Assembly (NCBI GenBank): GCA_011032825.1
Contig: JAADJZ010000037.1
Coordinates: 62,001 to 126,000, forward strand
Source of the DNA: Massariosphaeria phaeospora
Taxonomy: Eukaryota > Ascomycota > Dothideomycetes > Pleosporales
Reading direction: 5' to 3'
DNA length: 64,000 bases
Part shown: piece by piece, positions 3,395-63,165 of the stretch
How the letters are laid out: every line of letters starts with the position of its first letter
How positions within the stretch are numbered: the first letter of the stretch is position 1
Translations under genes and position numbers: made by a program
Notes under the pieces: model-generated
Seen by the model: only the letters and a program-made list of their open reading frames with translations
Told to the model about the DNA's origin: nothing
Database searches by the model: none

Positions 3395-5335
<1,941 letters not shown>

Positions 5336-5436
5336 TCAATGCAGGATGGGAAGGAAGAGGGGCGGGTTGCGGAGGTCGAGAGTCGAGAGTGCGCCGAAGA
5401 AAGCTGCGGTGAGGAAGTTTGGATATGGCCTGCTCC

Positions 5437-5467
5437 TAGAAAAATTGCTCGGAAGCATCTAGAAAAG
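5437..5467 (-). promoter_or_regulatory. Putative heat-shock element upstream of HSP60
   Basis: About 155 bases upstream of the HSP60 ATG there is a cluster of GAA units (TAGAAAAATT, CGGAAGCATC, TAGAAAAG) with imperfect TTC partners. This is spaced like a degenerate HSF1 site (alternating nGAAn/nTTCn). The pattern is seen; HSF1 binding is inferred. Confidence 0.35.
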
Positions 5468-5854
5468 ACTTGGCGTTGCCGCATGGATGCTGGTCCGTCC
5501 TCGCCTGCATCTCCCGACGTCGGCGCGCCTTGCACGTCTTCTGCTTCATCACAGAATGTCTTAGGCATCATTGCAAAGTCTCGTGGGAACACTCTCTTCG
5601 TATTTGTATCAGGCGTGAGCTCGTCGGCACTTTTTTCTCCATCTTGAAATGGGAGGCTGGACAGAACACCTGCATCGTCGCCCAGCTTTCTGCGGTGGTT
5701 CATCACTCAGTATCAGTCATTCGCAGCCCTAATATCTACTCCCAATCTTTGTCTCCATCAATCAGCTCTGTCTCTCGCCCGGAACGGAATGGACAGCTTC
5801 CCATCTGAAAGACCAATGCGTCCCTTCCATAACTAAACACTTATCGCCGCCCCC

Positions 5855-7183
5855 TCACCCCTCCACCCTCTCCGCCAGCACCAAGAAATCCCCCTTAACC
5901 TCCTTCAGCCCAACCCCCAGCAAACACATCCTCTCCTTCAGCCCGGGCACCACCCCGCCCTCAAGCTCCAGCAAACACCCCATAACCTGCGCATCTTGCT
6001 CATCCAGCAAATACACCTTACCGCGCGGCCCATCCGACACCTCCTTCATCTTGAACGGCACCATCTTGACCGCCATGCACACCTGGTCCTGCGGCGGGTG
6101 CTGTCCCGGTCGGGCCTTGCGTGCAGCTTTGGCCCGCGCGACGGCCTCTTTCTCCCATTGCTTGGACTCGGGCGCAGCGTTGTGGTGCACGAGGTGGTAC
6201 CAGTAGCGCGTGGAGCGGTCGGAGCTGCGCAGCACGATGGGCTTGGGACAGGCGGTGCCGGGCGGTGGGAAGCGGTTGTCGCCGCCGGCTCGGGGTGGCG
6301 GTGATTGCGCGTTGCTGGCGCTTGGAGATGCTGGGCCTGGGGTTTGCGGGACGGCGTGTGGCATCGATGGTGCGGGTGCCTGTGGGGGAGACGATGATGT
6401 ATGTCCCCTTCCACTTCGTCCCTGTCCCGTTTCCGCGCCCGTTGCCCGTCCACCTGCACTGCTTTCCGACGCATCGTCTACCCCAACCTGCGGCGCCGTG
6501 GTATCGTCGCTGTAGTTCGACTCGTTCTCCCACTCTTCCGCTGGGGGCTTTGTCTGCTTCTTCGGCGCAGCCAGATTCTCCTGGCCCCATCCAGCGAGGG
6601 GATTACCCCCGCGTCCGCCTAAAAAAGGATTCGCTTTGGTGCTGTTACGCGGCGTGGCGTTGTTGCGAGGCACGTTGTTGCTGGGCCCTGCTCTTCCGCC
6701 GTGGTGGTTGCCGTGGCCACCGCCGCCGCCGCCGCCGCCTCCTCTTCCTTTGCTTTTATCTCGGTCCTGCTGCCAGCCCAACGGATCGTCTGATTTATAC
6801 GTCTTCTGCTTCTGCGAGTTGCCGTGTCCTGGGTGCTGTTGTGCGGAGCTGGAGCCACCGAAACCGCCACCCTGATGACCGCCATTATGGTCGAATTGGC
6901 CTCCTCCCATTCCTGGCGCCAGGCCAAACGGTCCACCACCAGGCCCTCCACTTCCCATTCCCGCGGTGCCACCACCAGCGTTTCCCATACTCCCGCCAAA
7001 TCCTCTACCACCCGGTCCTGGCATCGCTCCCGCAAAGCCTCCACCCCCTCTCCCTCGCCCCCCGCCACGGTGATGCCCAGGCTCATCCTCCAGCCACCAT
7101 TCTACATGTTCACGATCGTGATATCCGACGCACAAGTCCTGCCAGTTGGCTGTGGGGTGGGGGCGCGAGAACCCGCAGCCCAT
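5855..7183 (-). CDS. Gly/Asn-rich hypothetical protein with putative N-terminal lipidation
   Basis: A single uninterrupted frame of 442 residues. It starts MGCGFSRPHPTANWQDLCVG. Gly2 and Cys3 would fit N-myristoylation plus palmitoylation, which would tether the protein to a membrane. Residues ~35-160 are Gly-rich, with GGG, GGHG and GGFGG runs; ~160-310 are polar, with Pro, Asn, Ser and Thr. The last ~130 residues (from KPIVLRSSDRSTRYWYHLVHH) look folded, with alternating hydrophobic and charged residues and a conserved-looking Trp/Tyr pair, and probably form the functional domain. I do not recognise the family. Start choice: first in-frame ATG, followed by the lipidation-type sequence. The leader upstream carries GTAG tetranucleotide and AACTG repeats. 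Confidence 0.7.
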   Translation of the reverse strand: MGCGFSRPHPTANWQDLCVGYHDREHVEWWLEDEPGHHRGGGRGRGGGGFAGAMPGPGGRGFGGSMGNAGGGTAGMGSGGPGGGPFGLAPGMGGGQFDHNGGHQGGGFGGSSSAQQHPGHGNSQKQKTYKSDDPLGWQQDRDKSKGRGGGGGGGGGHGNHHGGRAGPSNNVPRNNATPRNSTKANPFLGGRGGNPLAGWGQENLAAPKKQTKPPAEEWENESNYSDDTTAPQVGVDDASESSAGGRATGAETGQGRSGRGHTSSSPPQAPAPSMPHAVPQTPGPASPSASNAQSPPPRAGGDNRFPPPGTACPKPIVLRSSDRSTRYWYHLVHHNAAPESKQWEKEAVARAKAARKARPGQHPPQDQVCMAVKMVPFKMKEVSDGPRGKVYLLDEQDAQVMGCLLELEGGVVPGLKERMCLLGVGLKEVKGDFLVLAERVEG

Positions 7184-8245
7184 GGCTAGCTAGTAGTAGA
7201 CTGTAGTGGAGTAGATTAGATACGTAGGTAGGTAGGTAGGTAGGTTCCGAAAAATGTTGGGTTTCTAGGTTGGTATTGAGAAGACGTAGCTGGTATCTTC
7301 CTGCTTCCTTGCTGCTAAGCACGTCGACGTCTGTTGCGATGTGTCGCGCTTCTAAAGCTAACTTGCTGTTGGAGAGAGCGTCAAGAAGGAAGAGAAACAC
7401 ACTTGACTACTACTAATACTACACTCCGCTGGTCAAGTTAAGTTCAGTTCAGTTGAGTTTGATTTCTCAGTCCCTTTATACTCGTAGCTCGTTCGCGAAC
7501 TGTCGGTTTGTCAACTCCCCCGTACGTACGTACCAGTCAGTCAGTGAGTAAAGCAAATAATTCACGCATGTACGAACGCAATGCACAAAGGCAGATAGAT
7601 AGGTATGTGATTCAAGCTCCTGGAGTCTGTGTCGCCAGCTTGACAACGTTGAGGTATGTAACTGAACTGAACTGGACTTTGCATATGCATGTCAATGATG
7701 CATAACAGGCACCAGTATACGTGGTCGAATGCTGGACTATCGCGATACTTGTAACATTCACAATTCTGCTCAATTCGGTTCAATTTCTTTGTTCAATGCT
7801 ATTACATCGAGTTTAGTTCAGTTCAATTCAACTGTCGCAGCGCTTCACGCTTCACGCACAGCCAGCCGACCAGCCAGCCAGCTAGCCGCATGGAAGAGAC
7901 ATGGCATAACAATGCCACAACTAGGTACTTCGGTAACACTCACACACTCACACACTCACTCTCTCTCTCTTCACCTCCCCGTATCTATTCCCCATAGCCA
8001 TTGTGTAAGTGATCAGAAAGAACATGATGAATACCAGAAGCAGCGGAATTCTTCCCTGGGGGAAATGGGTGGGTATATAAACGACGCTGATGGACGGCGG
8101 TTGAGAAGCTCAGCTACCTTGATTACTTGAGACTCTGCATACAGGAAGAAGCACCTTATCTACAAAGTCGAGATATCGTCAACGACTACGTCTACCGTCA
8201 TACCGTCAACAACAAGTACGCACACACCCCCCACACCAACCCACC
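7184..8245. other. Shared promoter region of two glycine-rich genes
   Basis: A 1.06-kb spacer between divergent genes. It contains a GTAG tetranucleotide run at about 7225-7245 and three separate AACTG/CAGTT pentamer clusters (7436-7459, 7659-7674, 7811-7834). No coding frame with support was found. Confidence 0.55.
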
Positions 8246-40141: not shown

Positions 40142-42315
40142 TCACAAAACTCCCACCAACCTAGCCGCGACCACCGCCCCAACCTCTATCCCTACTAGTC
40201 TCCACGAGCCAGCAGAAAGCCGCCTCACAGCAGCACCCGTCGCCTCAACCGGAATACTCTGCGTCGGCGTCGGCCTCACAGTCCCATTCCCCGTCCCATT
40301 ACCAACCAAATCCGGGAACAAGCCCGTCGTATTCGCATCCACCACAATCCACTCCCTCACCAACGCACTCCCATCCTCCACACTCTCCCACTGCTCCGCC
40401 GTGCACTGATCCTTATCCAGCACATAACACTGCGACCCGGGCAACGTCACCGGCTCATTCGTAATATTGAACGTATCGGCCGGGCCCTTGGTCGCGTAGT
40501 CCGCGTTCTGCGTCGTGGAGACGTAGCCCGTGGCGATGTCGAAGTTGAAGAGCGCGCGCTGGAAGATCTTGTATGCGGTTTCGGGTTGGTACGCGGGGAC
40601 TTCGTGGCCGGCTTGGTAGACGCGCGTGAAGGAGAGGTTGCCGTGCTGGCGCACTTGGCCGCCGATGTAGGTGTCGTTTACGATGACGGGGGCGTAGCCG
40701 GCGGAGGCGAAGGCGGATGTGTTGGTGTAGTTGATGGCGAGGGAGAGGAGTTCGCCGCCATACCAGTTGCATGCTGGAAAGTGTTAGCATGGGGCATGTA
40801 CATGTGAGTGTTTTAAGTAGTCGGGGCATACCGTAATCTCGGTCGCCATATACTAGCGTAACCTTGATGCCTTCTTCCAGCAGGTACGCGAGGTCTTCTT
40901 TCCAACCCGGGCGGGGGTAATCGCCAATGCCCCTGAAAGCCTGCGACACTGCCGAATTCGACTGTGTCCAGTTAAGCGGAACACCAAGGCCTCGTTGAAC
41001 ATGCGGCTGATTCAACCACCCTCCATACCACGGCGGTGGAAACGAAGCCGCCCCGGGTGCCGAAACGTCGTAGTAGTTGAGATCCGTGTCGAAGTAGGGA
41101 TCACGGATCGTCTCAGAGCAAAAGGACTCCGCGGCCTGGCATACGCTATTGACGGAAGTGTTGTACCCCTGGTTGGTCGGGTCATAGAGCAGGCTGAGAT
41201 TGCGACATTCTTCAATTTGCGCGAGGCATCCGTCTTGGCTGTAGAGGTTGTCGAGCACTTCTTCGTACCGTGATTCGTTGATGGCTTTGATGCCGTAGCT
41301 GTTATTGTACGCCATCATCGGGTATCCGGGCCATTGGACAAGTCGGTCGATGCAGCCGTTGATGATTAACAAGGTATCGAGATGCAAAAGATGCGTTTGA
41401 CCCTGTTCGTCCCAGGTTCCATTCAGTATCCTTTCATTCTGTTCCTGGAAATATGCCGCGAAAGCGGGTCCATACCGGCCTCCGTACGATTCGGTCGCGA
41501 TCGAAACCCTGTTGTCGTTTGGCTTGTATCCCGGAAACTCCTGAAACCAGACTTGGGCGAAGTGCCATAGTGCTCGGGCAGAGTTCTCTGTGCCTTGTGT
41601 GGTCATGTTCCGATTTTGGCTGCCATAGGTTCCTACGTAGAAGGTGTTGTTTTGTTCAGGTACCCCAGTCGAAAAGTCAGCAATTTCAACGCCTTCGGAG
41701 TCGGTGTACGAGGATACAGTTACGTTGGTGAGAGTGTCGTAACTGAGGCCGACCTGAACGGGCTGATCCAAGTAAAGCATGTTGACTACATGAGGCAATT
41801 AGCTTCACACCTTTAATACATCTTGATCATTGACTTACCTTCGTTGTTCCAGGACCATTCATTTAGGTATGTGGAGTTTGAGTCGGAATGGACAAAGCAA
41901 GGCCCATTCTCTCGCAGCAGTCCTAGCATTGAGCTGCTACCTGGTCCTCCGTTCATCCATATCGACAGTGGCGCATTCTCCGGGTCCTTCCTCGATTCAA
42001 AGAACCAGAAGAATGTGTTGATCTCGTATGACTGGTTTCTGACGCCCAAGTCCTCGAGAGAACCGGCCGGAAGATGGACATAGCCTGAGTAACTTCGCAC
42101 GCCTTCGGTCGTTTCACAAAGGTCGCTCTGTGACTATATCAGCGGTGGTTCTCGAGCGGAATGATCGTACATACCTCTTTGTACGTGATTCGAATGCCCT
42201 CTTCGATATGTGATTCTAGCACAGTCAAGCCCTCAGGTGTGGGAGGAAATTGAGCGCGAACGACCCCGCTCAAAGCTCCAATCCCTGCCACCAGCTTCAA
42301 AAGCGGAAGAGTCAT
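40142..42315 (-). CDS. Serine carboxypeptidase (peptidase S10), secreted, probably GPI-anchored
   Basis: Four exons on the minus strand (42175-42315, 41839-42127, 40832-41785, 40142-40773), all with clean GT-AG sites; 671 residues. Residues 1-21 are a signal peptide ([21 protein letters not shown]). The S10 signatures are complete: [20 protein letters not shown] (oxyanion region), ESYGGRYGP with the nucleophile Ser at about 243, GDRDYACNW with Asp458 and AGHEVP with His518. Many Asn-X-Ser/Thr sites imply heavy glycosylation. The end is hydrophobic ([16 protein letters not shown]) after a Thr/Pro/Gly stretch, which fits GPI attachment as in carboxypeptidase S1 homologues. It would trim C-terminal residues from peptides outside the cell or at the wall. 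Confidence 0.94.
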
Positions 42316-43244: not shown

Positions 43245-44042
43245 CTAACTTCCACCGCCTCCCCCCCATGTAAACCCTGACATTGTACCGGAGTTATGGC
43301 CTAATTGAAGACCCGAGTTACCACTGCCAGAGAAGACAACGTGATGGGAGCTTCCGGCACCGTTCACAGCCCTTGCGATGGCCTGCTCTAACAGTTTGTC
43401 CTGGGTGGCGGCGATCTCTCTCAATACAAGCATCTCCTCGCGATCTCCAATGGCGGCTACTTCCGTGTCGCAGAGCTCAAGCTGCGACTGCTGAGCGGCT
43501 GGGAAAAGCTCGACTAAGCTGTCAACCAGCCCGGTGATATCATCAATCAGTCGTTGAAGATGTTTCTCTTCGTACAATGCCCACTTTGCCAGTTTCCAGA
43601 CGCTAGACCGGTTCTGCCGCTCTATAGATAGCTGCCGCATCTTTTGGTGAAGCTTCGCCATACTCGGGTCGAGGTCTGTTTGTGGATCGTACACCACAAG
43701 GTCGTTGTCCTGAGGATCTGCCCGATTCTTGAATTTGTTTGATACGCCTTCGGCGACTGCGAACAGATCTAGGGTCTGGCCAAGCAACTTTTCAGCACGT
43801 TTGACGGATTCTGACTCGAAACGCCCCTGGAGCGATACAGTATCTCCGACATCGTCATCCAGACCCAGTGATTTGCCCCACCGCGACAAGCGGAGCCTTG
43901 CGTTGTCGAGTTTGAGCTGACTTGTTTGGAAGTTCCTTCCGAATGAGCGGCCGATTTGGACGAATTCGAAGCACTCGACTGTGTTGTTGAAAAGGCCAGC
44001 GAGGGCGGCGACACCGACAACAAGACCTGTCGTTTCTGCCAT
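43245..44042 (-). CDS. HeLo-domain cell-death effector with C-terminal amyloid (PP/RHIM-like) motif
   Basis: A single exon of 265 residues. Residues 1-225 are a HeLo domain of the HET-S type: the start MAETTGLVVGVAALAGLFNN, then ECFEFVQIGRSFGRNF, the LRLSRWG helix, DPQDNDLVVYDP and WKLAKWALYEEKHLQRLIDD fit the family in order. In HET-S this domain inserts into membranes and kills the cell when the attached prion domain forms amyloid. The HET-S prion repeats are absent. Instead the tail carries the pseudo-palindrome GNSGLQLGHNSG (241-252), the form of the PP motif related to the RHIM of animal necroptosis proteins. The same motif opens the divergent NB-ARC/TPR gene 312 bases away. Function is inferred from family and context. 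Confidence 0.88.
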   Translation of the reverse strand: MAETTGLVVGVAALAGLFNNTVECFEFVQIGRSFGRNFQTSQLKLDNARLRLSRWGKSLGLDDDVGDTVSLQGRFESESVKRAEKLLGQTLDLFAVAEGVSNKFKNRADPQDNDLVVYDPQTDLDPSMAKLHQKMRQLSIERQNRSSVWKLAKWALYEEKHLQRLIDDITGLVDSLVELFPAAQQSQLELCDTEVAAIGDREEMLVLREIAATQDKLLEQAIARAVNGAGSSHHVVFSGSGNSGLQLGHNSGTMSGFTWGGGGGS

Positions 44043-44354
44043 ATCGTTTCTGTGAATCGGAGACAGTGACGATTGTCAAGATATAAAAGGAAGAGTGATG
44101 AGGAAGGAGTATCATGAGACCATGAGGAAGATTGCGGTTTGAGGGTGAGTGTTGGACACGAGCAAACCACAATCATCTGATATTTGCTGGATGATACTTT
44201 CTTTGTTTCCACATCTATAATATGTTAATACTCCGCGAAACAGATCTAGCTGATCTCTTAAGAGTTTGACAAGATCCCGACTTACGGAAGAGCAGTGTAC
44301 CTCTACGGAAGGCCTTCGAGAACACACCATCTAAGCCGCTGTCACAACCACACC

Positions 44355-46983
44355 ATGGATCAACATATTATCAATTTTACAGGCCCAGGAAACCAGGGCA
44401 TGCAGTTGGGATATAACTCTGGCTCTGTCGTCTACAACGGTTAGTGCTACCTTCTGCATCATGTAACTGGCGCTGAGCTAACAGCCATGCCTGGTAGAAC
44501 GTCAACGTCCTGAGACCCCACCGCCACCTGCATGTCTCGTGCCGTTCCGTCGAGACCCGGACTTTGTCGAGCGCGGGACGCTGCTCGATCAAATACGCAA
44601 ACGATGCTCCGCGCCAGCATCGAGAGTAGCGCTGGTGGGCCTCGGTGGCGTGGGGTATGCTCAACGGAAGGACTATTTTGTTCATGCTCGCATCTAACGC
44701 AGGCATAAGAAGTCGCAGCTGGCCATTGAGTACTGCTATCGGACCGTCGAGCAGTTGCCCGGCACGTGGGTGTTTTGGGCGCATGCCAGCAACGCCACTC
44801 GACTCGAGCAAAGCTTCCGGGAGATAGCTGACTATGTCAAGATTCGTGGCCGGGAGGACCCCAAGGCGGACGTATTCAAGCTGGTTCATAACTGGCTCCG
44901 CATTGAGAAGAACGGACCATGGCTCTTCGTCCTTGACAACGCCGACGATGCGGCAGCTCTTTCTTCACCACCGAACACTAGCCAGAAGTCGCCGGCAAAC
45001 CACGGCGGCGATGGCGCCCTCCAGCAACATCTATCGACATATCTGCCGCCAACCACACACGGCTCCGTCCTCGTGACTACCCGGACTAGACTCGCCGTGA
45101 TGCAGATTGTGGAAGACAACGATATCATACCTATCAAGCCAATGAGCGATACGGCCGCGCATGCCCTCTTTCGCAAGAAGCTAGGAGATACAGGCGATCA
45201 GGATGACGATGTTGCTGAGCTAGCGACGTCCCTAGACTTTATGCCGCTCGCTCTTGTGCAGGCGGCGGCATATATTCGAAAACGGGCGCCAAGATGCTCA
45301 GTGCAGCAGTACATCGAGGAGTACCGCCAGAACGACAACAGAACGACGAGTCTGCTAAACCAGGAAGCTGGTCATCTCCGCCGGGACGCAGAAGCCAACA
45401 ATTCAGTCCTGCTCACGTGGCAAATAACGTTCGAGTATCTACGAAGCCAACGACCATCAGCCGCGGATCTGCTTTCGCTCATGAGCTTTTTCGACCGACA
45501 GGGGATTCAAGAAGCTTTACTCCACAAGCCGAGCGGCGTAGCAAACGACGACGAATTTGAGAATGACGTTGCAACACTCCGAGGTTACTCGTTCGTCACG
45601 GTCACTACGGATGCAAACACATTCGAGATGCACAACCTGGTACAACTAGCTACACGCAAGTGGCTGGAACACCAGGGCGACCACCAATTCGATAAATGGA
45701 GTAAGAAGTTCATCTCCAACCTTTGCGCCGAGTTCCCTGAGGGTAATTACGAGAACTGGGGTAAATGTCAGGCACTGTTCCCACACGCGAGGGCGGCATT
45801 GGCACAGCGACCTAAGGGTAAGAATACACTCAAGAAGTGGGCCCAGTTACTGCACAACGCGGCAAGGTACGCCTCCAATATAGGAAAAGCAAACGAGGCA
45901 GTGTACATGGCAACGGTGTCGATGGAGGTAAGGAGAGAGGTGTGTGGTGAAGAGAGTTTGACAATGTTGTCGACCATGGCAACGCTTGTACTAGCGAGGC
46001 AACGCGGGGGCTGGGTGAAGGAGTCCAGATCGATGTGGAGGCAGATACTGACGATAAGCGAGAAGGTGCTTCGGCCAGATCAACTATATAGGTGGACAAG
46101 CATCGGCAGCTTAGTAGACCCGTCGGATCAACCAGGCAAATACCAGGAGGCAGAATTAATCGCCAGGATAGATATGGCAATTTCCGAGCAGATTTCTGGG
46201 TCTGAGCATCCGGACACGCTTGGGAAGATGCGCATCTTAGCGGGAATCTTAACCAACCAACTCAAGTTCGAGGAGGCAGAACCAATGTACAGGCAAATGC
46301 TGGCAATGGAAACGAAGATGCTCGGGCCTGAGCATCCATCCACGCTCCACGGGATGGACACTCTAGCGGTATTGCTTGACAAACAAAGCAAGAACGAAGA
46401 GGCAGAGTTGATGCTTAGAGAGACGCTAACGCGGCGAGAAAAGGTGCTCGGGTCTGAGCACACAGATACGCTGCGTAGCATGCACTGGCTCGCCAGCTTC
46501 CTCGTAGACCAGGGTTGTTACGACGAATCTCTTCTTCTGTTTGAACGAGCATATACTGGACACCGCACTGTCTTAGGGGAGGACAATCCAAAGACACTGA
46601 GTAGCATGCACAACTTGGCAGTTGTGCTTGACAAACAAGGCAAGTACAAAGAGGCAGAGCCGCGCCTTAGACAGACGCTAGCGCGGCAAGAAAAGTTGTT
46701 CGGATTTGAGGACAGAGACACGCAGGACAGCGTAGCCTACCTCGCCAACTTCCTCGCAAGGCACTATCGATTCGACGAATGTCTTGCTCAGTTTGAAAGA
46801 GCATATACTGCGCTTTCCAATGATTTGGGCGAGGATCACCCAGATACTCGTGCTTGCGGCGAAGGTTATGCCAAAATGAAAGTAGTAGTAGCCCAATATC
46901 TTGAAGAGCACCACGGTACCCTTTCTTCTTCTTCAGCAATACTAGATAACAGCTCAAATGCAGCTGCCCGCGATGTAGAATAG
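44355..46983 (+). CDS. NLR-type receptor: amyloid motif, NB-ARC, TPR repeats
   Basis: Three exons (44355-44439, 44498-44654, 44703-46983), 840 residues. The first exon encodes only the amyloid motif (GNQGMQLGYNSG, residues 12-23). NB-ARC follows: PFRRDPDFVERGTLLDQI, the P-loop region VALVGLGGVG (72-81), Walker B LFVLDNADD (155-163), GSVLVTTRTR (about 201-210) and a GLPL-like LDFMPLALVQAAA. About six 42-residue TPRs with LGxEHPxTL-type ends fill residues ~560-815. This is the PP-NB-ARC-TPR layout of Chaetomium PNT1. The expected role is ligand sensing through the TPRs, nucleotide-driven oligomerisation, then templating of amyloid in the effector. Oddity: the best splice leaves two extra residues (HK) between GGVG and KSQLAIEY in the P-loop. 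Confidence 0.88.
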
Positions 46984-49396
46984 TTTCATTTCGCTTTCTC
47001 AAGCGATAGTCTGTATTTCAATTTCGTTTTCAACTTTTTTGCTCTTACTATTTTACGAATTATTGTCATCCACCATCAACTCTTCTGCATGTACTATCTA
47101 TCCTACCTACTCCTGTCCCCTTAGTTTCGCCTTTAACATTACTTCCGCACCTATCTTTACTTCTCTTACCTGTACCTAGCACATTTTACTCTTATCACAA
47201 TCTTGTACCGCCCTTAACAACACTACTCTAACAGATTGAATCCTAGATATTCTGTCACGGTTTATAGCTCTTACCCTATGAGATGGATAAGGGTACTACG
47301 CTTATCTAGGACTAGCGCTGTCTGTGCTTTCGCACCTACAAATTCTGTAGCTTCTAGATAATACAACCTCAGTTCAATCCTCAATTCCCTACGCACTGCT
47401 TGCACTCACCGCGACATATTCCCACCTCGATCTCAGGCTCACAGTTTACGAAATGCTACCCCAATTCAATTCACACAAAATCCAAAACCACTAGAGTCTC
47501 TCTAGTCTGTCCAATTTCTCAAAACATACGCTTAAGCAGCTACCTACACCGCAATTTTCTAGGACTAGAGCGGAAGAAGTTATGACATCAAACTCTACGC
47601 TGGACGTCTCGACTCGTTTACGTACAACAGATAGTATGTCCTCTACTAAGGACTAGGTAGGCAACCAAGAAAGTCAGCCCAGGCATGTGCCGGAAGTCCA
47701 CGAGCGTCATGGCTCTCAATATATCTATGCTGTAACGCTAACTACGAAGTAGCTAAGTGTAGACTTACTACACTAGACAGGATAAGCAACAGAACGACAT
47801 TCAGTCGAGCATCACTCACGCTATACCATTTCTACGACGACATGTTTGCTTATAAGCCCACCATCTGAGAAGACGTCCAGAGGACCTTTCTAGAGCAATA
47901 CTGTATCATCTGAACATGTCCGACCGAATTCCTTGGAGTATCTCCTAGAGTAAGTTAAGCTATGTGCAAAGAACCCGCACAAACGATCCGTCGTAACTAA
48001 TTAATTAATGCCTCTAGCTACAGCACAACTCTCCCCTCAATGCTAATGTCCCTCCACCCCACAATCCCACCCAAACGCCCTCCTCACCCTCCTAGCCTCT
48101 AGCATCCAATCCTCTAGCTCTACCAACCCCTTCTTACGCCTAACAATTAGTCCTATACCACCACCACCTCCCCCCATCCGCCCCGCCTGCCCCGCCTGCC
48201 CCCCTATCGCAATACCCTCCAACCCAAACCCCGCCTTCGCAATCTACTCTTAAACAACCAGCACACTCCCATCACAATACCCCCCTCAAGCTCCCTCCCC
48301 CTCACCGCGTCCTCCCCCTCCAGCACCACTGTATTACACACCCTCTTATTTGCATCTCTCGCCTACACTATCGCACTCTTCACTCTATCCGCAACATCCA
48401 GCCCCTTCAACTACGCCTGCGCCTGCCCTGCAAACCTCCCCCTTTGTCAACCCAATTGCCTACACCTGCGCACCCATCCTGCATCCTGCAGCGCATTCCT
48501 TCTCTCTCCTCCCTACCCCTGCACGCACGCGCGCCGTGTAATTCACAATCGCGGACACGACACGACGCAGCCTTCGTCTTCGGGGCAGTCAACTCGCGCG
48601 CGAAGTCAACTAACAGTGCAGGATAAAAGGGGGGGAGGGGGGGGGAGTCTACCGCGTCGATGTAGTGTAGTGCAAGGAGGGGGAGAATGCGCTGCTGGGC
48701 TGTAAGCAGTAAGGGGGCGGCCTAGGTGGAGATGTGGGCGAGGTAGGACGGGGGATGTGATGTGTTGTTTAGGAGGTGTTGGGTGAAAGCGATGGTTGGT
48801 GTGGTTGGAGAGGCAGTCTTGCGCTATGAAGGCGATGGTGTTGGGGCTGAGAGGGCTCTAGGCGGTGGTGTGGGGGATGAGGGGCAGGAGGAGGAGGAGG
48901 AGGAGGGGGGGGTTTGAAGGAGAGGGGCATTTTTGTAGGGAGGGAGGTAGATGTTGGACATGCGAAATGGAAATGACGAGGAGATGTGAAGATGAGGTAT
49001 GTGCACAGGCTATATATGGACGACAACGACTTGAGGTGTTATCTAGGCATTTTGAAGTCGGTCAAGTCCGGCCTAGTCACTATCTTTCCTCGCGGACTTC
49101 TTGTAGTTGTATGTAGGTCCGGCGTGCCCCTAACCGAAAGAGGCAGGCGCTTGCCCGAAACGCGGGATATCGCCCAGATGGCACTACGCGATGCAGGCAA
49201 CGATTGGATGCAGCACTGACGAAAGACGGCGGCACGCGAAAGGACACAATGACTGAGGCGACCCAATTGATACTCGGCTGCTGCACACGTACCTGCCTGC
49301 CTCAGAGTAAAGTAACTAGCCATGCAGGAAAATGCAGGGTATCTCGATGCTTCTACGGTCGCTAAACTCGTCATATGAATAGATAGCAGATGCTCG
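46984..49396. other. Gene-poor region
   Basis: 2.4 kb, AT-rich in the first half and with Pro-coding C-rich tracts and a (GAG)n run near 48888-48906 in the second. No supported gene or element end was found. Confidence 0.5.
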
Positions 49397-50285
49397 TTAT
49401 TGCGCCGCCACTTCGGGCTGTGCGGCTTCATGCGCGTCATTCCCTGCATCTGCAAGATCTTCGCCCTCTGGTGTTTCTTCTGTAGGCGCGGGATGGCCTT
49501 CGAAGAGGCGGATCCACCACGCGGGAGGGTCCAGCGGGCTGTGGCCGTCGTGGAGCGGCGGGTATACGTCGTTGAAAAAGTACCAAACTAGCGCATGTCA
49601 GCATCAACATGTACCGCAGCGCGGGGGGTCACGAGTCTGACTTACTATGGCCCACGACAATACCGCACAGCTCGTCTTTCGGTATCGTGCCGTGCATAAC
49701 CAGCGAGAAGCACATGAGCACCCACGGCAGATACGGCGCGCGGAACACCATCAAGCCTAGGAAGCTGAGCAGCGTGTCCGGGTTCTTGCGGCTCCAGATG
49801 TAGATGAGCGTGCTGGACAGCGCGGAGCCGAGGAAGGCCATGGAGAACAGGGGCGCCATGCACAGCAGCAGCGTCGACGTGAAGGCCAGCAGCCACGAGA
49901 AGTGCGCGGGCGAGCGGCCCGACGACTCCTCGAGCAGCCGCGAGTAGCGCTGCAGGAAGAAGATGTGGTACAGCAGGTCGAGGCTCAGCGGGCCGAAGTA
50001 GAAGAAGGTGGTCACGAGGCGCCAGTACTGGGTAGGTGAGGCGGTGGTCAGCAAATGCGTGCGCGCAAGCTTGAGTGTGGGAGAAAGATGTACCTGGCTG
50101 CGGTAGAAGACAGTGCGGAAGCTGTAGAAGAGCTGGAAGGGATCGAGGATTTCGCATTGCACCAGTACGCTCGCGCTCAGCGCGGCGGTCATCCACCAGC
50201 GCGTGCACACGGGCATCTCGAAGAACCACTGCTCCAGCGGGAACTGGCCGCGGATGCCGTCGCCGCCGGCAAGCACGTTCGCCAT
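49397..50285 (-). CDS. der1: Derlin (DER1), ER-associated degradation
   Basis: Three exons on the minus strand (50094-50285, 49646-50027, 49397-49587), 254 residues. The sequence shows the derlin pattern: FPLEQWFFEMPVCTRWWMTA at the first membrane segment, LFYSFRTVFYRSQ, then YWRLVTTFFYFGPLSLDLLY, multiple hydrophobic segments and WVLMCFSLVMHG before a polar tail. Derlins are rhomboid-fold pseudoproteases that form part of the ER retrotranslocation channel with Hrd1. No catalytic Ser/His dyad is expected. The tail (about 60 residues) is rich in Pro, Glu and Ala. The gene is divergent from CENP-A with a 763-bp spacer. Confidence 0.9.
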
Positions 50286-51048
50286 GGTGGTGGTATATCG
50301 GGCGTGTTGTCGGGAGTGTTGAGTATATTTACGGAAAGATGGATGCGGGAGTGGATGGTGGAGTGGAGAGTGGAGTGAAGAGTGGCAGGCCGGGCAAGAT
50401 GTTGTGTATGAATGATGAGGCGCGAGAGGAACAGTGCTGTCGGCGCGGGTAACCGGCGAAGATGAGGACAACTATACGATAAGCGCGGACAGCAGTCACA
50501 CGAGCCGGCACTTGAGGTCGCTGCGCGTTGGATTGTTTGCTTGCGGCTACGTAACCTGCATCTCCGCCTCCGCCGCCCGCCAAGGTAAGGTTATCTAATC
50601 AGCACGTGACCGCCCGCCCCCAGCCACTTGCCAGCCACCATCCCCCAGCCCCGCCCATTCATCACTCCCCACAACCGTCCGTCTGCGGCAGCCCCCTTGC
50701 TGGAGGACGAGCAATGTCCCGTTGTTTTGAGTGCCGCGTCCTGCTGCTCTACTCCATCGATTCCTCTTCTTCGCCTCTGCTGCGTTGATTCCTCTCTCTT
50801 TTGCCTGAAATTCTGAGATCGCGCGAAAAACGGAACGCGACAAGCTTCTCGCGTCGGATCACGAGCGCGCCACGCCTAGCTAGCCACCACCAGCACCACG
50901 ACCCCGTCTTCTCCACACCACAATTGCCATTCACCCTCTCGCGAGCGCACCATTGGCCCTACAGGCCCACTTCCCCGTCTGCGCCGGCCACCGAATCCCC
51001 GCCCCGGCCTGACCCCGCGACGACTGCCAATTGCACGACGCCGACGCG

Positions 51049-61845: not shown

Positions 61846-63165
61846 TCAGCTCGCCAATACCCGCGGCGGGAAGATGTCAATGTGGATCTTTCCCTGTCCG
61901 CGGAGCAGCATCGCCAGTCGTTCGGCAGCCTCGTGTTTGAAAACCCACTGCGTAGCCCTGCTCGACGGATCCAGCAGATGATCGTGCGTAATCTGGCTTT
62001 GCACATCTTCCAGCCTTTTGACGTGCGCAAACGAACCCCCAGGCCTACCCACATGCCCGACCAACAGTTCCGCAGCCTCGAACTTGGCAAACCGGGACCG
62101 CACCTCGCTGCCGCTGCCCCAGCCCCCCGTGTGGCAGTACCAAACGTATTCTTTCCACTCGGCAGAGTACCAGATGTGTTCCTGGCGCAAGCCTTGCGTA
62201 AACGTTCGCGGGATCTGGATGCGGATGGCCCAGGTTTCGCTGTAGGGACAGCGGCTGGCGGCCCAGAGGCGGTATCTTTCTGCGGTCGAGCGCTCGGGCG
62301 AGAGATACAATGCGACACTTCCGGTGTTGAAGTCGTTGTGTGGGTCGTTGCACAGTGCCCTCATCAGGACGGACCCGTCTTCGGCAATGAAGGGGCGTTT
62401 TTTCACATGGCCAGCTGCTCTGCCCATCCACAGGATGTCGTGGTCCGGAAGCTCCGGTCCAGCAGCTTGGACAGTGACCGCATTTGCGGGCAGCCCCTCG
62501 ACGTCTGACGGCAGACTGATAGTCGCCGTTGGCGTGCCAGTGCGTGGGCCTTGCCCTGTAGCGAACGAACCGGATTCGAGGACGATTTCCGTCTGGAGGT
62601 CTCTGCTCCATTTCCTCACGAGCGCGAGCGTTGCTACGTGCTTCAGCCGTCGCGTCAAGTCGATGAGCGCGGCATAGCTGATGTCCAGCGTGTCGCGAAC
62701 CCAATAGTGAAGCGACTGCGTGCCTCGCACGTCTGCGAATTCGGGGTCGTTCAACGCTTCGATCACTTCGGGCTTCAAACCGATTATCTGCATGGTCTCG
62801 GTCGGTGCCATGTCCCTGGGTAGCGCATTCAGATACGAAACAGGGCCTCGGTACATCCGGTCAAAAGTGTTCATGTCCCGATCTTGTGGCGACTGCGCAA
62901 AACAGCGGTTGTAAATGTCCACGGCCACCGCTGGGGTGAAGCCGATAAACTCCAAGGCTGCTGCACTTTCTGGCGATCTTGGGAGTTCGAAGGTGGAGGT
63001 CGGAGGTGAGCCTATTGAAGGAGGTTCTATGAAGCTGGCAGTTGAAGTCAAGAGCGCGGTGCTCACTGTGCGTTCGTGGAGATTGCAACTTGGCTGAAGA
63101 AAATGCTCATCTTCTAGAGCGCGCTCTTCCTCAGGGGTCAACGGGTATTCAGGGTATTCGTCCAT
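61846..63165 (-). CDS. Hypothetical 439-residue protein
   Basis: A single uninterrupted frame starting MDEYPEYPLTPEEERALEDE. Residues ~70-200 are helical (PESAAALEFIGFTPAVAVDI; a RLKHVATLALVRKWSRDLQ helix). Residues ~255-400 look like a compact alpha/beta domain with NDFNTGSVALYLSPERSTAERY, WAIRIQIPRTF and SAEWKEYVWYCHTGG. The order of a Gly-Ser-x-x-Leu-Tyr-x-Ser strand followed by a helix and later a Glu-containing strand recalls ADP-ribosyltransferase-like folds. The resemblance is weak and I do not claim activity. The protein looks genuine (length, no low complexity) but I do not recognise its family. No signal peptide or membrane segment. Confidence 0.72.
   Translation of the reverse strand: MDEYPEYPLTPEEERALEDEHFLQPSCNLHERTVSTALLTSTASFIEPPSIGSPPTSTFELPRSPESAAALEFIGFTPAVAVDIYNRCFAQSPQDRDMNTFDRMYRGPVSYLNALPRDMAPTETMQIIGLKPEVIEALNDPEFADVRGTQSLHYWVRDTLDISYAALIDLTRRLKHVATLALVRKWSRDLQTEIVLESGSFATGQGPRTGTPTATISLPSDVEGLPANAVTVQAAGPELPDHDILWMGRAAGHVKKRPFIAEDGSVLMRALCNDPHNDFNTGSVALYLSPERSTAERYRLWAASRCPYSETWAIRIQIPRTFTQGLRQEHIWYSAEWKEYVWYCHTGGWGSGSEVRSRFAKFEAAELLVGHVGRPGGSFAHVKRLEDVQSQITHDHLLDPSSRATQWVFKHEAAERLAMLLRGQGKIHIDIFPPRVLAS

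Follow-up and report, generated by a model that had tools for sequence, protein, structure and literature searches.

A 64,000-nucleotide stretch of the Massariosphaeria phaeospora genome (the window; positions 62,001 to 126,000 of contig JAADJZ010000037.1, assembly GCA_011032825.1, forward strand) carries two divergently oriented genes, one for a HeLo-domain protein (43245-44042, -) and one for a protein with the features of a fungal NOD-like receptor (NLR; 44355-46983, +). Closely similar PP-type amyloid motifs are found at the C-terminus of the former and the N-terminus of the latter. The two genes very probably encode an NLR amyloid signalosome of HeLo/PP type, in which the NLR would serve as sensor and the HeLo protein as executioner, a mechanism modelled on that of homologous systems. 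A first-pass annotation of this DNA had proposed the same divergent arrangement and the same division of roles; its coordinates, strands and motif positions are correct by translation and gene models (Table 1), and comparison with homologues lends support to the sensor-executioner pairing. The window represents the C31 locus of a 42-Mb assembly in 51 contigs, and the genome searches described below covered these contigs.

The HeLo gene, an uninterrupted frame that starts with the ATG at 44042 (-), encodes an effector whose N-terminal domain matches the Pfam HeLo family (PF14479) with an E value of 4.8e-52 and 177.2 bits, against a cut-off of 23.2. A sequence search of the Protein Data Bank (PDB) lists three chains for this protein, all named small s protein, at E values of 1.6e-40 to 8.1e-36, with the best match (2wvo, E 1.6e-40) extending over residues 1-234. 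This sequence match to solved HeLo chains settles the fold class of the effector as HeLo. In the Pfam scan, which is listed to E<=10 although HMMER filters discard most matches above about E 0.1, only HeLo and Ses_B appear, and neither HELL/HeLo-like (PF17111) nor the HET-s repeat family is among the matches. The profile check thus agrees with the earlier assignment of the domain to the classical HeLo rather than the HELL type. The effector tail shows a single PP copy in place of the two 21-residue HET-s repeats that characterise HET-S and its HET-s-related amyloid motif (HRAM). Residues 23 and 33 have been described as markers of HeLo toxicity (PMC3531502), and alignment to HET-S and HET-s places a serine at position 33 of the effector rather than the inactivating proline.

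The three-exon model of the NLR gene encodes 840 residues without internal stops. Pfam matches to the product include TPR_10 (E 1.7e-45, 152.2 bits), TPR_12 (E 1.8e-34, 118.2 bits) and DUF7779 (E 4.1e-9), together with a NACHT match that lies under its cut-off (E 2.8e-4; 21.2 bits, cut-off 26.7). The first 405 residues match paralogous receptors on contigs C25 (69% identity over query residues 69-405), C9 (71%, in the nucleotide-binding region) and C49 (56%), as well as more distant loci. Within the stretch encoded by exon 2, identity reaches 75% to C25 (query residues 31-94) and 78% to C9 (query residues 30-83).

Table 1. Features of the HeLo/NLR gene pair, with positions in the window
Feature	Position	Strand	Basis
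HeLo-PP executioner gene, single exon, 265 aa + stop	43245..44042	-	ORF/translation, Pfam, PDB
HeLo domain, residues 6-204	43431..44027	-	Pfam PF14479, 177.2 bits, profile 1-202 of 205
Region of the C-terminal amyloid motif (PP type), HeLo protein residues 232-256	43275..43349	-	Ses_B PF17046, 35.3 bits
HeLo protein motif core GNSGLQLGHNSG, residues 241-252	43287-43322	-	Translation; conserved in C25 and C1
Intergenic gap between divergent start codons, 312 bp	44043..44354	.	Gene models
NLR exon 1, carries N-terminal PP motif	44355..44439	+	Gene model; similar exon layout in C25
NLR motif GNQGMQLGYNSG, residues 12-23	44388-44423	+	Translation
NLR exon 2, ends at GLGGVG of P-loop	44498..44654	+	Gene model; paralogue identity
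NLR intron 2 (model)	44655..44702	+	3' end unlike three paralogues (C25, C9, C49)
NLR exon 3: remaining nucleotide-binding domain, DUF7779, TPR repeats	44703..46983	+	Pfam matches

The shared PP-type motif

The motif cores of the effector (GNSGLQLGHNSG) and the receptor (GNQGMQLGYNSG) are identical at 9 of 12 residues, which bears out the count given in the first-pass annotation. When every 12-mer in the six reading frames of the window is compared (127,930 of them for the first motif), the runner-up match to either motif reaches only 6 of 12, so chance does not account for the sharing. The Pfam Ses_B family (PF17046) matches the HeLo tail well above its cut-off (35.3 against 23.2 bits), and the genome search with the same family scores the NLR N-terminus at 22.8 bits, or at 23.2 with its neighbours, a value counted as over the cut-off. 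Despite its name, Ses_B corresponds here, by sequence match, to the PP pattern. Both NSGLQLGHN of the effector and NQGMQLGYN of the receptor fit the core NxGxQxGxN of Wojciechowski et al. 2022 (PMC9815663), in agreement with the earlier description of the two motifs as PP-type (RHIM-like). They also match the longer pattern that Daskalov et al. 2012 (PMC3321046) printed for PP, apart from one additional variable position that it has after LQL. The sigma motif, suggested by the name of the Pfam family, is ruled out: it is built from other submotifs, GxGxQFN and GGTQNINT (PMC3321046), both of which are missing, and the PP core fits.

Across the six motif copies known from three loci, the residues F, N, G, Q, G, N and G are invariant. 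Two genome motif searches, with 6 and 5 matches and the best candidates scored, returned only the HeLo and NLR genes of these three loci, and no motif-bearing lipase was seen among those candidates. A search of the PDB with the motif profile gave nothing at E<=10. A loose pattern scan, which divergent motifs could escape, detected motif-like N-termini at none of seven other NLR loci (L051-L057).

Related loci and the age of the pair

The genome search for HeLo domains yields at least 9 matches at no fewer than 7 loci, and a PP tail is present at three of the seven listed: the window (C31), C25 and C1. The C25 locus (L015) repeats the divergent layout, with a HeLo-PP gene (5317-6111, +) oriented away from an NLR gene that encodes an N-terminal motif (exons 5021-4925, 4869-4719 and 4663-2626, -). 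Its start codons are separated by 295 bp, compared with 312 bp in the window, its first NLR intron is of the GC-AG type in the model, and its NLR motif exceeds the Ses_B cut-off at 29.0 bits. The C1 locus (L016, G000:C1:793000-802900) is built differently, with a NACHT-type ankyrin NLR followed by a HeLo-PP gene on the same strand (spans of about 3589-7016 and 7228-7987, respectively). The N-terminus of this NLR is PP-like (NRGSQVGYNAG; Ses_B 17.8 bits, under the cut-off), and a stop lies between its two open frames. The tail of the C1 HeLo-PP gene scores 35.6 bits with Ses_B, and the copy looks broken because its HeLo part is divided between two frames. A second NLR-like frame can be read from the sequence of L016 from about 8341.

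The C31 and C25 loci arose by an old duplication of the entire divergent pair, judging from sequence divergence at synonymous (dS) and nonsynonymous (dN) sites. Of 263 aligned residues, the two HeLo proteins have 194 in common (dS 1.00, dN 0.16, dN/dS 0.16), and the two NLRs agree at 469 of 759 (dS 1.11, dN 0.28, dN/dS 0.25); the similar dS values are consistent with both genes having been duplicated together. Along the NLR, dN/dS is 0.18 at aligned codons 29-420 and 0.31 for the rest, which is mostly TPR, and the motif-bearing tail of the HeLo protein gives 0.17 (37 codons). Such low ratios show that selection maintained the two proteins and the tail motif over most of the period since duplication. 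Exon 1 of the NLR gives 0.19, a weak estimate from only 28 codons with a dS of 2.3, and on this basis was probably coding through most of the divergence. The TPR region of C25 consists of tandem 126-bp units with 79-88% identity to a 252-bp reference copy; the window repeats are more diverged, with 72% identity at 252-bp spacing.

Other relatives of the window receptor carry different N-termini. At C9 (L051, G000:C9:822500-832400; 3465-4097 and following), neither the loose scan nor the genome motif searches found a PP motif, and an upstream open frame encodes a SesA domain (PF17107, 76.2 bits) that stops at a candidate splice site ahead of the shared NLR exon. We infer that SesA is spliced to the NLR, in which case C9 would possibly carry that receptor core in an in-cis version; effector domains carried on a receptor and coexisting with a separate motif-bearing protein are described in print (PMC3321046). 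The C49 relative has a different, short N-terminus. Decayed copies of the NLR 5' part lie downstream of the C25 HeLo gene (L015, about 6291-6465; BLASTN E 2.7e-13) and on C1 (L053, G000:C1:2962000-2971900; 4097-6035, E 1.5e-35, broken by about 1.6 kb), and with the split C1 HeLo gene they point to turnover in the receptor and effector families. A possible motif remnant, LRVGHNSGSI, is located beside the decayed L015 copy, with an E value of 0.12 on its own. At two further loci, L004 (G000:C24) and L007 (G000:C34), a HeLo domain shares its frame or locus with a protein-kinase-like C-terminal part, as judged by eye.

Proposed mechanism, receptor P-loop and alternative readings

Assignment of the pair to the HeLo/PP signalosomes is supported by the HeLo and Ses_B matches of the effector, by the TPR and sub-cut-off Ses_B matches of the receptor, by the joint duplication and long retention of the two genes, and by the prior publication of the same architecture. 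By analogy with NWD2/HET-S and PNT1/HELLP (PMC4344463, PMC7885112), binding of a ligand by the TPR repeats would trigger ATP-dependent oligomerisation of the NLR, and the clustered N-terminal PP motifs would nucleate an amyloid that templates the tail of the HeLo protein. The N-terminal helix of the HeLo domain would then be released to attack the plasma membrane, leading to cell death. In the window copy, the receptor is probably impaired, and the executioner looks intact.

The doubt about the receptor arises at its nucleotide-binding loop. The best in-frame joint across intron 2 adds two residues to produce GLGGVGHKKS, which departs from the Walker A consensus GxxxxGK[ST]. That consensus is restored by 0 of 60 in-frame splice choices, enumerated for GT-AG, GC-AG and AT-AC introns with donors at 44600-44689, acceptors up to 44769, an open downstream frame and a fixed exon 1-2 joint. 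GLGGVGKS is present in the protein model of C25, and inspection by eye shows that a direct GLGGVG-KS joint is also possible at the junctions of C9 and C49. Because the two-residue insertion interrupts Walker A in the best splice model, the window receptor has likely lost activity; in NWD2, point mutations of the P-loop lysine abolished activity (PMC4344463). Such a loss is not certain, since non-canonical P-loops are recurrent in fungal NLRs (PMC4986451). The locus may hold a disabled receptor beside an intact-looking executioner, and an assembly error may also be the source of the abnormal sequence.

Several observations weigh against a functional HeLo/PP signalosome in the window. Given the abnormal P-loop, the full route from receptor to executioner may not be running from this locus. 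The receptor had been annotated as an NB-ARC/TPR protein, of which the TPR part is upheld by its family matches; NB-ARC itself is not listed in the whole-protein Pfam scan and NACHT falls under its cut-off, whereas the C25 paralogue passes NB-ARC (25.8 bits, cut-off 23.5). In the same whole-protein scan, Ses_B on the NLR N-terminus reaches 17.9 bits, under the cut-off of 23.2. On the effector side, residue 23 of the HeLo domain is glutamate, acidic like D23 of inactive HET-s, where HET-S has alanine, though serine 33 is permissive, and the peak N-terminal hydropathy (19-residue) of 1.56 falls between those of HET-S (1.81) and HET-s (1.36). The window effector motif, moreover, is nearer the C25 receptor (12 of 18 positions) than its own (11 of 18).

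These features make it conceivable, and worth tentative consideration, that the window holds a decaying copy: the C25 pair would have kept the job, the window receptor would be non-functional, and the HeLo gene would persist by inertia or be on its way out. Such a history is compatible with the HeLo/PP family assignment and denies only present function. It would explain the lack of Walker A in any in-frame splice choice and the lack of a listed NB-ARC match where C25 passes, and it accords with the family turnover evident from the decayed NLR 5' copies on C25 and C1 and the split C1 HeLo gene. The window genes nonetheless keep long frames (265 aa for the effector and 761 aa for the third exon of the receptor), and dN/dS relative to C25 is low in both, although averages over so old a split would miss a recent loss.

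A second possibility, which appears unlikely, involves wiring across loci. The window receptor would no longer be driven by ATP, and its still-conserved executioner would answer to the PP receptor of C25 or join a common pool with it, creating an amyloid network of many receptors and many executioners in which a P-loop-less receptor may buffer or cap the amyloid. The window effector motif is, as noted above, marginally closer to the C25 receptor.

The motif comparison covers 18 positions in the receptors and effectors of C31, C25 and C1. Viewed from the receptors, each of the three is nearest its own effector by one residue (11 versus 10 and 10; 13 versus 12 and 10; 10 versus 9 and 8). Viewed from the effectors, only that of C25 is nearest its own receptor (13 of 18), and that of C1 ties (10, 10, 10). 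Coevolution of cognate motifs, considered as a candidate explanation, thus fails from the effector side. The C31 and C25 effector motifs are identical at 16 of 18 positions, and cross-talk between the two loci is, from these sequences, at least as plausible as insulation.

A HELLP-type (HELL/PP) system, as in Chaetomium and Podospora, would have the same PP core and an NB-ARC/TPR type of receptor; it is nevertheless highly improbable here, with the effector matching HeLo at 177 bits and PF17111 unlisted at E<=10. That the two genes are mere neighbours, resembling each other by chance or through low-complexity Gly/Asn content without a functional link, is scarcely credible: the motif is indeed G/N-rich and the NLR Ses_B match is weak alone, but the next-best six-frame match stops at half of the 12 residues, C25 repeats the divergent arrangement together with both motifs, and C1 has a PP-like NLR beside a HeLo-PP gene.

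Relation to published systems and neighbouring features

The reading preferred here, a HeLo/PP signalosome, places the window pair closest in form to systems reported from Arthroderma. The combination of HeLo with PP had been annotated as what would be a mixed architecture; its novelty does not hold, since a HeLo-PP gene beside an NB-ARC/TPR gene of the STAND class (signal transduction ATPases with numerous domains) was published in 2012. Daskalov et al. 2012 (PMC3321046) named the PP motif and defined it partly from HeLo proteins of Arthroderma otae and A. gypseum, whose genes adjoin NB-ARC/TPR STAND genes with an N-terminal PP motif. The window pair resembles these in joining HeLo to a short PP extension and in the adjacent STAND gene with N-terminal PP and TPR. 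Compared with the published description of the Arthroderma pairs, it differs in that its genome has three HeLo-PP loci, one with a NACHT-type ankyrin receptor, and in that its own receptor is without the Walker A consensus.

PP prion activity and induction of death have been demonstrated for HELLP/PNT1 of Podospora (PMC7885112). As in PNT1/HELLP of Podospora anserina and PNT1/HELLP/SBP of Chaetomium globosum, the PP motif in the window is common to an NLR with TPR repeats and an adjacent, putatively membrane-targeting executioner; unlike in those systems, the executioner domain is HeLo rather than HELL, and no counterpart of the motif-bearing lipase was seen among the best-scored candidates in this genome. 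With NWD2/HET-S of Podospora anserina, the pair shares an executioner that is homologous over residues 1-234 and an adjacent NLR with a matching motif, but it has a single PP copy where HET-S has two HET-s repeats, and in its receptor TPR takes the place of the WD repeats and an NB-ARC-like domain that of NACHT. A more distant parallel, argued in the literature, is the mammalian RHIM necrosome (RIPK1/RIPK3/MLKL), with an amyloid core of the form G-x-Q-x-G and a helical bundle that targets membranes and is considered related; the fungal pair differs in its NLR sensor, in having the motif on the executioner itself and in the lack of a kinase step. The literature searched, with subscription journals mostly outside it, contained no paper on the window locus itself.

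The known picture of fungal amyloid signalling is unchanged by this pair. What is new, as far as the sequences go, is the coexistence of three HeLo-PP loci in one genome and a receptor with an interrupted ATP loop; the abnormal P-loop and the two further HeLo-PP loci extend beyond the first-pass annotation. Together they compose a natural set of two co-duplicated pairs with near-identical effector motifs, a third locus whose receptor belongs to another class, and a group of related receptor cores fronted by PP or by SesA. The set invites the questions of whether signalosomes that run in parallel on similar motifs remain insulated from one another, and of what becomes of an executioner once its own receptor loses the ATP loop.

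A bacterial promoter scan and a tRNA scan of the locus gave no results, and both are uninformative at a fungal protein locus. The pair is neighboured by a Peptidase_S10 serine carboxypeptidase read in two frames (40455-42133, -) and by a gene for a Der1-like protein (49629-50471, -). Downstream of the NLR gene, a 136-bp segment (47243-47378) is 86.8% identical to positions 780-915 of L053 and is possibly a dispersed repeat.

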